This document shows, piece by piece, positions 5,804-49,287 of a stretch of 64,000 nucleotides of DNA. The translations under genes were made by a program, and so were the position numbers. Origin of the DNA: a virus; IMG/VR virus record IMGVR_UViG_3300021479_000014, positions 16,610 through 80,609 of that record; one strand, written 5' to 3'. The notes beneath the pieces were generated by a model, which saw nothing but the letters and a program-made list of their open reading frames with translations, was not told the origin of the DNA and ran no database searches. The stretch's first letter is position 1, and the number at the start of each line of letters is the position of its first letter.

Positions 5804-6331
5804 GTGCAAGATCTCTTCGATCAGCAATCAGTAAATGATTTCCATTGGATTGTAGCAGTCTTCGCCAATACTGGTGCCGTAGATGTCATTAGAAAAGCTA
5901 ATGAAGTTCCTCTCAAAACATTTTATCCAATACGTTTTAATGGACGTGGAGAGCCAATACCTATGTGGCGCCACTATTTATTCATCGAATTTCGCCAATT
6001 TATAACAGCTGAGATTTGTCGTAGTACAAAGAAGTTCATAAAAGTTTTGAGTATGAGAGATAAATTTGGCATAGAATATCCAGTAATGGTACGCAAGAAT
6101 GCCATTGATGAACATATGAGATTATTGTTATCTGGTAAATTTAATGAAAAATTACGTATGAGAAGATTTTATGGTAAGGGTTCATTTGTTAGAGTAATTG
6201 AAGGAACATTTATTGATAAACGTGTAAGATTGGATATGGACATTACACCAGATATGCCAGGTACTAAGAAAGTTTTGGTAGACATTAATGGGTTCAAAGG
6301 TTCAATAGAACTATGGAAGTTAAGCTTATGA
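5804..6331 (+). CDS. NusG-like transcription elongation or antitermination protein
   Basis: 175 residues from GTG 5804, chosen because GGAG lies six bases upstream; an in-frame GTG at 5768 would add 12 residues but has no visible ribosome binding site. The N-terminal half looks like an NGN domain: FHWIVAVFANTGAVDVI, a Tyr-Pro segment and MWRHYLFIEF in place of the usual LFPGYVFV. The C-terminal part has a KOW-type strand pattern (GSFVRVIEGTF, then KVLVDINGFKGSIELW). NusG/RfaH proteins bind RNA polymerase and make it processive. It heads the long plus-strand operon, as expected for an antiterminator. Domain call is by eye. Confidence 0.7.
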   Translation: MQDLFDQQSVNDFHWIVAVFANTGAVDVIRKANEVPLKTFYPIRFNGRGEPIPMWRHYLFIEFRQFITAEICRSTKKFIKVLSMRDKFGIEYPVMVRKNAIDEHMRLLLSGKFNEKLRMRRFYGKGSFVRVIEGTFIDKRVRLDMDITPDMPGTKKVLVDINGFKGSIELWKLSL

Positions 6332-6486
6332 ACGATGATGAAGACGAACATTATAACGATTATGATGAAGGATACTTTCCTCCATCTAAATATCCTTGGA
6401 GGGAATTATTTACGTTTATATTATTTCTATCAATTTTCCTAGCAGGACTATGGTGGTTAATATGGAAGATATATGAATGGGTCTAA
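6328..6486 (+). CDS. Small single-pass membrane protein
   Basis: 52 residues. ATG overlaps the stop of the NusG-like gene by four bases (ATGA). The N-terminal 25 residues are very acidic (Asp/Glu/Tyr), followed by one hydrophobic helix (LFTFILFLSIFLAGLWWLIW) and a short aromatic tail, so an N-in or N-out single-span inner membrane peptide. Function unknown. Confidence 0.6.
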   Translation: MNDDEDEHYNDYDEGYFPPSKYPWRELFTFILFLSIFLAGLWWLIWKIYEWV

Positions 6487-6523
6487 GAGTAAAAATCATG
6501 TCAATGGCTGGAGAGCATAGAAA

Positions 6524-6718
6524 ATGGACGCTGCTATCATAGAAAATTTGGTACAAGAAACTGTGTTTACAATATCTCCTCACAAACTAAAGATCGCAAC
6601 AGATGAAGCACTAAGAGTAATGATTAATAGCGGTGTATTCTATCCACGAGAAATAGCTGAAAACATCGCCTACGCTGTACTCAGAATCGTACACCAGAAT
6701 GGAGGTTTCATTGACTAA
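6524..6718 (+). CDS. Small hypothetical protein
   Basis: 64 residues with GGAGAG upstream of the ATG. Mainly alpha-helical, amphipathic, no cysteines. Its end overlaps the start of the following zinc-motif gene. No family recognised. Confidence 0.65.
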   Translation: MDAAIIENLVQETVFTISPHKLKIATDEALRVMINSGVFYPREIAENIAYAVLRIVHQNGGFID

Positions 6719-6974
6719 AGATGAAGACTTCCCTCGAATGAGCGAACCATATGTCATAGCGTGTCTGCGAATATATGGCGCTGCACCAACAGAATCACTA
6801 GTGGGATGGTGCGGTAGATGCGGACATGATATATGGATCGCTAAAAGCACTCCTCAGATCAAAAACGCAAAATACATATGTCTCAATTGTGTTAACTGGA
6901 GTGAGGTTGATGATATTGAAGCGCCAACTCCAGAACAAATTGAAGATGTACTGAGACATAGGAAGAGACAATGA
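6699..6974 (+). CDS. Small zinc-ribbon protein
   Basis: 91 residues from ATG 6699; a TTG at 6711 preceded by GGAGG is an alternative start and would give 87 residues. Two Cys pairs (GWCGRCG around residue 38 and ICLNCVNW around 62) form a CxxC-x(n)-CxxC zinc ribbon. Ends in a charged helix and overlaps the nuclease gene downstream by four bases. One of many small zinc proteins in this operon; target unknown. Confidence 0.7.
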   Translation: MEVSLTKDEDFPRMSEPYVIACLRIYGAAPTESLVGWCGRCGHDIWIAKSTPQIKNAKYICLNCVNWSEVDDIEAPTPEQIEDVLRHRKRQ

Positions 6975-7465
6975 AACTAGAAAATATTACTAGTGAAGGT
7001 GATTTGCGCAATTGGCTCACAGATCAGATCTTCGAGTGCGAAGGCCGATTAGGATTGGAATGGATAGAACCTGCCAAGTTCGGTTCCACTATTGGCGCAC
7101 CAGACTGTAAAATCAAATATGGTATTAGCTCCATAGGTCTTGAGCTAAAATATTTAATCAGTACAAAGAAAGGCATAAAATGGGCGGTAAGACCTGCCCA
7201 ACGACGCTATCATCACATGCTTGCTTTTCATGGTGGTCGTAGTGCGCTTATGGCTTTCATTGCCGCCAAACAAGAATTGTATTTAGTGCGAGGTGACCAT
7301 ATTCCATTGAGAGATTATGCTTCTGATCCTCAATCTGGATGCGCCAATAGATTAGTTAAAATGACACACTTAGACTTTATGAGTATTGATAGAGATCGCC
7401 AAGCTATGTTCGCTCTTGAAGATAATTTGTTTCAAGACGAGTTTTGGGAGAAGAGCAATGGTTAA
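6971..7465 (+). CDS. Putative PD-(D/E)xK nuclease
   Basis: 164 residues, ATGA overlap with the gene before. The core STIGAPDCKIKYG...GLELKYLIS matches the PD-(D/E)xK signature (Asp about residue 45, E-x-K around 58-60), followed by a VRR-NUC/Holliday-resolvase-like helix with Arg and Gln (RPAQRRYHHML). Such enzymes cut DNA in replication, recombination or host-genome breakdown. No extra domain. Exact subfamily cannot be settled by eye. Confidence 0.65.
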   Translation: MKLENITSEGDLRNWLTDQIFECEGRLGLEWIEPAKFGSTIGAPDCKIKYGISSIGLELKYLISTKKGIKWAVRPAQRRYHHMLAFHGGRSALMAFIAAKQELYLVRGDHIPLRDYASDPQSGCANRLVKMTHLDFMSIDRDRQAMFALEDNLFQDEFWEKSNG

Positions 7466-7700
7466 GATGGTACCGCCACAATACAAAAAGGGAGGATTAC
7501 ATGGGCCACCTAATGATAGAATATTTCATCACTTTGTTGGTCAAGCAGTACAAAAAATCAAAGGCTACAAATATCCAGGTATCATCTTAGTTGCATTCAA
7601 AACATTAGATGGAAAGGCACGCTATGTCGTTGAAGCTGATCATCCTGATTTTCGCGGTATGCTTCATATTTTCTCTGATGCGGACATTGAGGAACGGTAA
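7458..7700 (+). CDS. Small hypothetical protein
   Basis: 80 residues. Start taken at ATG 7458 (GGAGAAG upstream) rather than the longer in-frame ATG at 7386, which lies inside the nuclease gene. Composition is basic N-terminally, then a mixed alpha/beta segment (GIILVAFKTLDGKARYVVEADHP). No recognised motif. Ends overlapping the next start. Confidence 0.65.
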   Translation: MVKMVPPQYKKGGLHGPPNDRIFHHFVGQAVQKIKGYKYPGIILVAFKTLDGKARYVVEADHPDFRGMLHIFSDADIEER

Positions 7701-15723: not shown

Positions 15724-16610
15724 AACGGTTCTCCTAATAGGCCGAAATTACGTGCAAAGTTACACGTATGGCTTGGCAGTATTGCCTAAAAGGTGAGCCG
15801 TCCATAGGCGATTTACGATGTCAAACAGCACATTGGTCTAGCCCTATTATAGCACGTTTTCTAATGTGAAGCAAACCCACATTAAATAGTGGCGCATCAA
15901 GTCATCTATCACCATTATCAATAGCTGATGATATTTGACAATTGAACATGGCAAATCTGTGTATGAATTCTGAACCGCCAAAGTGCGGCAAAAATAGGGC
16001 TTGCCTTCCTTCGCGATTTCGGCTAGACTACCCTCTAGCCCGCTATAGGCGCGGGCGAAGACGATCTGATCTGACTTCTACTGCGGTTACACTTGACATT
16101 CCGCCGAAAGCGGTCTCTGCGGTTTTTGACAGATCCTACGACCCGCTGTTTGACATTCGAGGATTGCTTTATGCCGGCTGGGCTCGTCCGTGTTCGGGGC
16201 TGATTACGCATGTCTGAAGACATGCGGAGAATCAACAGGAGCGGTAAAAGGATCACTCGTAGAATAGCGCAAGTATCACGGGGTTGCGAAGAACAACGCT
16301 CTGATACGAAAGGCAAGCGCATGACAAGTTGCCTGAGGATGTTTGACCAGCCTTAGATGCAGGAAAACAGATTTGACGAACTCATGTAACACCCTGTTGA
16401 GTCCAAAAAGGCAAGAGACAGTGTTTTGAGGGTGCAAACTGGACGGGAAAAGAAACCGTACGTGGCGAGCAAGGGAACATCCGAAACCCAGACATTGTGC
16501 GATAGTGTCTGGTGACCCAAAAAATCAAAGACAGCAATACAGAGCACAGCGGGATGAAATAATCCTGCTGTGTTCAATAGTGCTGTCAGCACTAGAAAGG
16601 AGAAATCAAA
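15724..16610. other. Gene-poor, hairpin-rich region, possible structured RNA
   Basis: 887 bases with no gene I can support; the frame at 15942-16217 gives no recognisable protein. Hairpins: GGCTAGA/TCTAGCC at 16021-16040 overlaps GCCCGC/GCGGGC at 16038-16056, so the two exclude each other; GCATGTC/GACATGC with TGAA loop at 16208-16225; CCAGACA/TGTCTGG at 16488-16512; an 11-bp near-perfect stem at 16545-16572; TAGTGCT/AGCACTA at 16578-16594. Middle part is more GC-rich than flanking genes. A leader or noncoding RNA is possible. Confidence 0.45.
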
Positions 16611-48118: not shown

Positions 48119-48210
48119 ATTATAGCAAAGTTATCTAAGTTATCCAAAACCACTATAACTAAATCACAAATAATTTTTGTACTATACAAGGGCGCATAAA
48201 TATGTTACAG

Positions 48211-48223
48211 TTTGTTAATGTTT
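48211..48223 (+). promoter_or_regulatory. 13-mer shared with the early control region
   Basis: TTTGTTAATGTTT at 48211-48223 is identical to 5716-5728. It lies in the 183-base gap before the PEP-CTERM gene, which otherwise holds no gene. Confidence 0.4.
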
Positions 48224-48301
48224 CAAGAATAACTGTGAGTGCGTATTAACTCACCGTTATGCGTTGTAATGGTGCGTTCACCCAGATCTGGAGAACAACA
48301 C

Positions 48302-48949
48302 ATGAGAACTATGCTGCTTGCTGGCGCGGCTATGTTGGGGCTTATGGCCCCGGCTTATGCCACGTTGCAAATCGAAGTGTTTGACAATGGCACTTTGATC
48401 GACAACATCACGGGGATTACGACTGGCGCTGCTTCGCTCACAACCAATGATGCGAACTTTGCCAATATCACAATCGCCTCTCAAGGCTCGCCTATTTTGC
48501 CCAATGCCGATCTGTCAAGCGTCACACTTGACGCCTCCGCAGCGGCTGGCTTTACAGGCTCGCACACATTGACGGTTGATATCCTGCAAAGCGCCGTGTC
48601 TGGACTTGGAAACACGCTCTCGACCTTTACGGTCAACGGCCTTACCAACGATCCTGGCCCAACGACAGAGAGCACGTTCGCCGATGGAGGGCTTCTAGCA
48701 ACGCACACGTTCCCTGCTGCGCTGCTTGACGGTTCTTTTGGGCCGGTATCGGCAGCAACTGGTCCGTTCACTTCGGATGAGATCCAGTTTGCTGTGGACT
48801 TCACTGCACCAAGGCAGTCGTTTGGTGGTTCAGCCCAGTTGACGACAAACGTTCCTGAGCCTTCGACTTGGGCTATGCTCATTCTTGGCTTTGTCGGACT
48901 TGGCTTTGTCGGGTTGCGCCACAAAGCTGGACGCCTAGCGTCTCTCTAA
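48302..48949 (+). CDS. Secreted PEPxxWA-CTERM protein
   Basis: 215 residues from ATG 48302 with CTGGAGA upstream (an in-frame GTG at 48239 would add an unlikely N-terminus). MRTMLLAGAAMLGLMAPAYA is a Sec signal peptide (AYA cleavage). The C-terminus VPEPSTWAMLILGFVGLGFVG followed by RH is the PEPxxWA-CTERM sorting signal used by exosortase systems, here with a short basic end. The centre is a Ser/Thr/Gly-rich beta protein. GC content and codon use are those of a bacterial gene, not of this phage: a recent host acquisition. May decorate or modify the host surface during infection. Confidence 0.9.
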   Translation: MRTMLLAGAAMLGLMAPAYATLQIEVFDNGTLIDNITGITTGAASLTTNDANFANITIASQGSPILPNADLSSVTLDASAAAGFTGSHTLTVDILQSAVSGLGNTLSTFTVNGLTNDPGPTTESTFADGGLLATHTFPAALLDGSFGPVSAATGPFTSDEIQFAVDFTAPRQSFGGSAQLTTNVPEPSTWAMLILGFVGLGFVGLRHKAGRLASL

Positions 48950-48981: not shown

Positions 48982-49287
48982 TCATCTGGAGAGATTATAT
49001 CTGATAGCAACCATTTCGCCATATAATCGTTCCATTAATTCTTCAGTAAACTCTTCACGTTTTATTTTAGCTTCTTCTGTCATAAAAATATGACCATATG
49101 TAATAGCTAAAGCAACTGCATGTGTCAAATTAACAGCACCAAATTTAAACCGTGCTGTATCAAGATGAGTTTTTACTGTTCCGAAAGATACACCCATAAT
49201 AAGACTAATTTCGTGATAAGTCTTACCTTGCGCTGCCCATGTTAGAGCTTCAATTTCTCTTGGTGAAAGTTTTATGGCATTTAGCAT
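48982..49287 (-). CDS. Stand-alone LuxR-type HTH protein
   Basis: 101 residues. LSPREIEALTWAAQGKTYHEISLIMGVSFGTVKTHLDTARFKFGAVNLTHAVALAI is a complete GerE/LuxR DNA-binding domain, close to the alphaproteobacterial type; no signal-binding or receiver domain is present. It could bind host LuxR-regulated promoters or sense nothing and act constitutively. It overlaps the cupin gene and lies at the end of the minus-strand tail block. Confidence 0.85.
   Translation of the reverse strand: MLNAIKLSPREIEALTWAAQGKTYHEISLIMGVSFGTVKTHLDTARFKFGAVNLTHAVALAITYGHIFMTEEAKIKREEFTEELMERLYGEMVAIRYNLSR

Follow-up and report, generated by a model that had tools for sequence, protein, structure and literature searches.

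Why does a phage carry a gene for a PEP-CTERM protein? The gene lies in a 64,000-nucleotide stretch of viral DNA (the window; positions 16610 to 80609 of the 80,609-bp IMG/VR virus record IMGVR_UViG_3300021479_000014), and an earlier note, made from the letters alone, had called such a gene unexpected in a phage. In the analysis presented here, the gene (family 1) is not a single capture of a host gene by one phage; it belongs to a conserved family that is found in many phages and in shared slots. We propose that it is a phage-borne surface-display cassette that would use the exosortase of the host, with receptor masking or superinfection exclusion as the likeliest purpose, and we place the probability of this reading at roughly 0.42.

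The gene and its parts are listed in Table 1. The open reading frame starts with ATG, and residues 184 to 206 of its product score above the cut-offs of the PEP-CTERM models (Pfam PF07589, 26.7 bits versus 20.7, E = 5.6e-6; NCBIfam TIGR02595, 21.7 bits versus 16), which confirms that the phage encodes a PEP-CTERM protein. The narrower label PEPxxWA-CTERM is justified only in part: the motif PEPSTWA is seen by eye, but the score against NF035944 (26.7 bits) is below the cut-off of 35. The C-terminal part reads VPEPSTWAMLILGF...GLRHKAGR. The Sec signal of the earlier note also holds; it was read by eye as MRTMLLAGAAMLGLMAPAYA/T and is retained in homologues. The mature domain (162 residues) contains no Cys, and hence no lipobox Cys, and almost no Lys or Arg. 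Its Ser and Thr residues make up 25%, so that the description as Ser/Thr-rich is correct in direction, with a mild enrichment. The best NCBIfam model for the protein is that of the FxDxF family (NF038126; E = 1e-7, residues 51 to 206), a score that comes at least in part from the shared tail; at 32.3 bits versus a cut-off of 50, the protein is not a member. The window protein is probably an exosortase substrate.

Table 1. Coordinates of the PEP-CTERM gene, its parts, and the adjacent signals in the window
Feature	Positions	Strand	Basis
PEP-CTERM protein gene (family 1), 215 amino acids	48302..48949	+	Open reading frame, Pfam/NCBIfam scores, homologues in about 63 viral contigs
Shine-Dalgarno-like GGAGA, 9 nucleotides 5' of ATG	48289..48293	+	Sequence; conserved in L003-L005
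Sec signal peptide, residues 1-20, AYA/T	48302..48361	+	Sequence; varies among homologues
Mature all-beta domain, residues about 21-183	48362..48850	+	88% mean identity, selection values, AlphaFold2
VPEPSTW motif, transmembrane helix, and basic tail, residues 184-215	48851..48946	+	PF07589
Hairpin between convergent genes, T-run on minus strand	48958..48980		Fold statistics, sequence

In a scan of IMG/VR, family-1 homologues with 53 to 100% identity turned up on about 63 viral contigs, which come from 30 metagenomes. Grouped by common neighbors, the contigs form 16 groups, summarized as at least nine unrelated backgrounds that share only the gene. Hallmark phage genes, a baseplate gene among them, adjoin the copies: the gene is flanked by a terminase and the major head protein in L047 and by a terminase and the portal in L019, and it is located near an exonuclease and a Sak4-like protein in L060 and near a phage primase in L011. 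The nearest cultured relatives are Ochrobactrum and Sinorhizobium phages by portal and Rhizobium phages by primase. Cultured phages and plasmids gave no family-1 match, and PHROGs holds no family for the window protein. The guanine-cytosine (GC) content of the carriers ranges from 40 to 65%, and the third-position GC of the gene tracks that of the carrier. The gene tree, many branches of which are poorly supported, requires 17 changes of background against a minimum of 8, which argues for transfer of the gene from one phage lineage to another. Beyond the window's own clade, DNA similarity is confined to about positions 48350 to 48915, i.e., to the coding region, and a mobile cassette with its own promoter was ruled out because of this limit. 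The 20 family-1 records tested yielded no tyrosine integrase, which makes lysogenic conversion improbable for this family and points to action of the protein during lytic infection. The integrase is present in all three family-2 carriers tested. In several phage backgrounds, the gene often found directly 5' of the PEP-CTERM gene is that of family F4 (L031:4738-5415 and homologues), the products of which are rich in Pro and Gly, with repeats like HPDQGLPG, have the conserved core PPGxxWPPLPP...GKAxxxxxIxGVGxRY, and match no NCBIfam model.

The position of the gene was followed in the g1 podoviruses by taking the 80 best relatives in a search with a major head protein profile, each spanning the F5-F9 interval. 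The closest 37 relatives carry a PEP-CTERM gene between the portal-like and capsid genes (F5 to F9/F10) in 32 cases, with 12 genes from family 1, 10 from family 3, and 10 from family 4, whereas none of the remaining 43 has such a gene in the slot. The interval is mostly 1.5 to 2.6 kb in the closest 37 and mostly 0.7 to 1.3 kb in the 43 farther relatives. In the g5 group, which was collected with a portal profile, a PEP-CTERM gene occupies the slot between terminase and portal in 23 of 80 loci, many of the loci being too short to tell; the occupants are from family 1 (4), family 2 (9), and family 3 (9), plus L336 with two others. Family 3, known from 41 contigs, also takes the family-1 positions in g4 (L407), g6 (L420 and L422), and L028-type phages (L421 and L424). 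The mature parts of the four families are mutually nonhomologous (all probabilities below 1% in hhalign profile comparisons), and all four carry a signal and a PEP-type tail. As judged from the sequences, the tail motif is thus retained and the outer domain is swapped in the same slot, and the slot matters more than the family-1 gene itself. In L061, L062, and L063, the head protein is 90 to 92% identical to that of L047, and the family-1 protein is only 53 to 59% identical to the window copy; the slot gene in these phages diverges or undergoes replacement far more quickly than the capsid. L216, a 73-kb phage that encodes an integrase, has two tandem PEP-CTERM genes at 6001-7533, the first from family 2 and the second unrelated to it.

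The mature domain of family 1 has a median ratio of nonsynonymous to synonymous substitution rates (dN/dS) of 0.11 and is under purifying selection. Among homologues, the mean identity and the corresponding ratio of nonsynonymous to synonymous polymorphism (pN/pS) are 47% and 0.70 for the signal peptide, 88% and 0.18 for the mature core, 88% and 0.09 for the VPExxTW motif, and 43% and 0.61 for the helix and tail. This is the pattern that a functional outer domain, a recognized motif, and a generic membrane anchor would give. A PExxTW-type motif is kept in 41 of 42 distinct tails. One family-1 copy (L059:1339-1998) has VPGPVVGAGLPGVIVGCGFLVLLAMTRRK in place of the PEP tail, and this may be a different sorting signal attached to the family-1 outer domain.

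A profile of the mature domain matched nothing in approximately 1,300 sampled proteobacterial genomes (392, 385, 199, and 349); the same query matched 8 of 8 family-1 carrier records used as a positive control. Among the matches listed in a wide genome scan, only proteins sharing the tail were seen, and a maximum-sensitivity re-search of those 80 bacterial loci yielded no mature-domain match. The family-3 and family-2 profiles likewise found no match in 289 and 199 bacterial genomes, respectively. Family 1 is therefore probably restricted to phages. An exosortase was found in 7 of 8 genomes with similar tails, which are alphaproteobacterial or related and are candidate hosts only, and in none of 23 virus records tested; a host enzyme would therefore do the sorting. 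The AlphaFold2 model built with 38 homologues is a confident all-beta structure, although only the best of five models was good (predicted local distance difference test score, 82; predicted template modeling score, 0.77). The Foldseek matches, to carbohydrate-binding modules and phage fiber tips, were weak (template modeling scores, about 0.3 to 0.5), and a sequence search of the PDB gave no match for the window protein. The modeled beta-sandwich is compatible with binding to a surface or a sugar, and proves nothing about it.

In the mechanism that we propose, the Sec pathway of the host would export the phage protein during infection, and the host exosortase would recognize the tail composed of VPExxTW, the helix, and basic residues. 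In the published model, EpsH would cleave the PEP motif on the outer side of the inner membrane (PMC1569441). The small all-beta domain would thus be released to, or fixed in, the cell-surface or exopolysaccharide layer, where it may shield or jam phage receptors. Such shielding could exclude superinfecting phages and could also prevent progeny from adhering to debris or to infected cells; Llp of phage T5 does so by another route. T5 Llp, a secreted phage protein that blocks the receptor, is the precedent (PMC9586334). The cassettes would be exchanged among unrelated phages of alphaproteobacteria that probably bear exosortases. We infer the host, the processing by exosortase, and the display. 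Because the tag stays constant and one slot accepts unrelated outer domains, selection appears to act on the display of some domain, and a display cassette of one purpose or another is highly probable. Receptor masking as that purpose is a guess from the T5 precedent that may well be wrong, and the surface effects named in the earlier note, e.g., blocking other phages, are plausible. More tentative still is a general form of the proposal, in which soil phages of exosortase-bearing bacteria would share a modular exclusion system, with a fixed slot, a constant host tag, and swapped nonhomologous outer domains, by which the sorting enzyme of the host repaints infected cells against rivals.

Several observations weigh against display for receptor masking. 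The L059/L235 copy has a non-PEP tail (VPGPVVGAGLPG), the fold matches are weak, and no carrier contig was linked to a host. In one of the sampled bacterial families, an exosortase is present in just 1 of 101 genomes, so that many of the genomes searched could not be hosts. In the g1 podoviruses, the gene has the same orientation as the head genes around it and may be expressed late, in which case superinfection exclusion counts less than the masking of debris. The main rival to receptor masking, which we consider rather unlikely, is an effect on matrix or adhesion: the displayed domain would bind exopolysaccharide and alter how infected cells aggregate or form biofilm, for example to keep progeny near new hosts or to ease their release. 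In bacteria, PEP-CTERM proteins are linked with exopolysaccharide and with the formation of flocs (PMC1569441 and PMC9850573), and the resemblance of the beta-sandwich to carbohydrate-binding modules suits this role as far as such weak matches go. Nonhomologous swaps in one slot look more like exclusion or arms-race loci, although several adhesins could also be swapped.

The remaining explanations differ from receptor masking by surface display in what they make of the tag. A protein anchored by its helix with the domain in the periplasm, stopping incoming genomes or modulating lysis, would need only the signal peptide and the C-terminal helix, and the exosortase would be incidental. Spackle of phage T4 and other periplasmic exclusion proteins are the comparison for such a blocker. 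The copy that lost the PEP motif agrees with this topology, but outside the core no part is under tighter constraint than VPExxTW (pN/pS of 0.09), the helix is free, and the same tag is kept in four unrelated families; we regard the periplasmic blocker as improbable. The tag common to otherwise unrelated families would also fit a decoy that floods the exosortase with substrate and strips host PEP-CTERM proteins from the surface. A pure decoy is very improbable because the mature domain, for which it would have no need, is conserved (88% identity and dN/dS of 0.11). Least credible is that the gene is host DNA, whether as an assembly chimera, through misbinned bacterial contigs, or as recent host cargo without a phage function. 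The earlier note described the GC content and codon use as bacterial in look; the composition of the gene is indeed unlike that of the phage around it (54% GC versus 40% in the flanks), and a few singleton PEP-CTERM hits in IMG/VR (L068 and L071) do resemble host flanks. Chimera and host cargo are nevertheless ruled out by the recurrence of the gene in about 63 independent viral contigs, by hallmark phage genes on both sides, and by strong purifying selection, and the bacterial loci have no homologue of the mature domain even at maximum sensitivity.

Compared with the bacterial substrates of PEP-CTERM/exosortase (EpsH) systems (TIGR02595 and PF07589), the window protein has the same Sec signal, PEP motif, transmembrane helix, and basic tail, and the families likewise share the single gene of about 200 amino acids and diverse mature domains. 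It differs in that it is encoded by a phage, has a mature domain for which the bacterial searches gave no match, has no exosortase or exopolysaccharide genes found alongside, and is exchanged between phage lineages in fixed slots. By NCBIfam model, the closest match is the FxDxF family of PEP-CTERM proteins, to which the protein does not belong. Like T5 Llp and similar superinfection-exclusion lipoproteins, it is a small, secreted protein of a phage, with the host envelope as its presumed site of action, whereas T5 Llp is a lipoprotein and jams FhuA from the periplasmic side (PMC9586334), and here the route would be the exosortase tag and the predicted fold is a larger beta sandwich. Our search of a collection of papers for PEP-CTERM and phages found no report of phage-encoded PEP-CTERM proteins, and a relevant paper among them deals with genes of hosts. 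The parts are thus known (the PEP-CTERM tag and phage exclusion proteins), and their combination and the swappable slot appear to be new. If the proposal is true, the exosortase, the biological role of which is poorly known, is a pathway exploited by phages, and the swapped domains are ready reagents for studying the purpose of exosortase display and the receptors of soil phages.

The window phage encodes a DnaE polymerase, an SNF2 helicase, an S74 tail-fiber protein, a collagen-like collar fiber, a baseplate wedge protein, and a primase, and therefore looks like a myovirus, one without a near cultured relative. Upstream of the PEP-CTERM gene, a perfect 20-bp dyad (GTGAGTGCGTATTAACTCAC) is located at 48235-48254 as a single copy in the window. 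It was rejected as a LuxR operator, since with two mismatches it is not above chance in the window and it is missing from L004; a sigma-54 promoter was rejected as well, the pattern not being found in 48119-48301. The hairpin downstream, which the earlier note took for the terminator of the gene, is real (perfect, significant at z = -3.2), but because of the strand of its T-run it would, as an intrinsic terminator, suit the convergent gene at 48982-49287(-) at least as well. This gene encodes a LuxR-type (GerE) helix-turn-helix protein of 101 amino acids, and its top NCBIfam model is EpsA, the PEP-CTERM-associated regulator, far under the cut-off (42 versus 170 bits). In L412, a homologue with 60% identity to this protein adjoins a family-3 PEP-CTERM gene.
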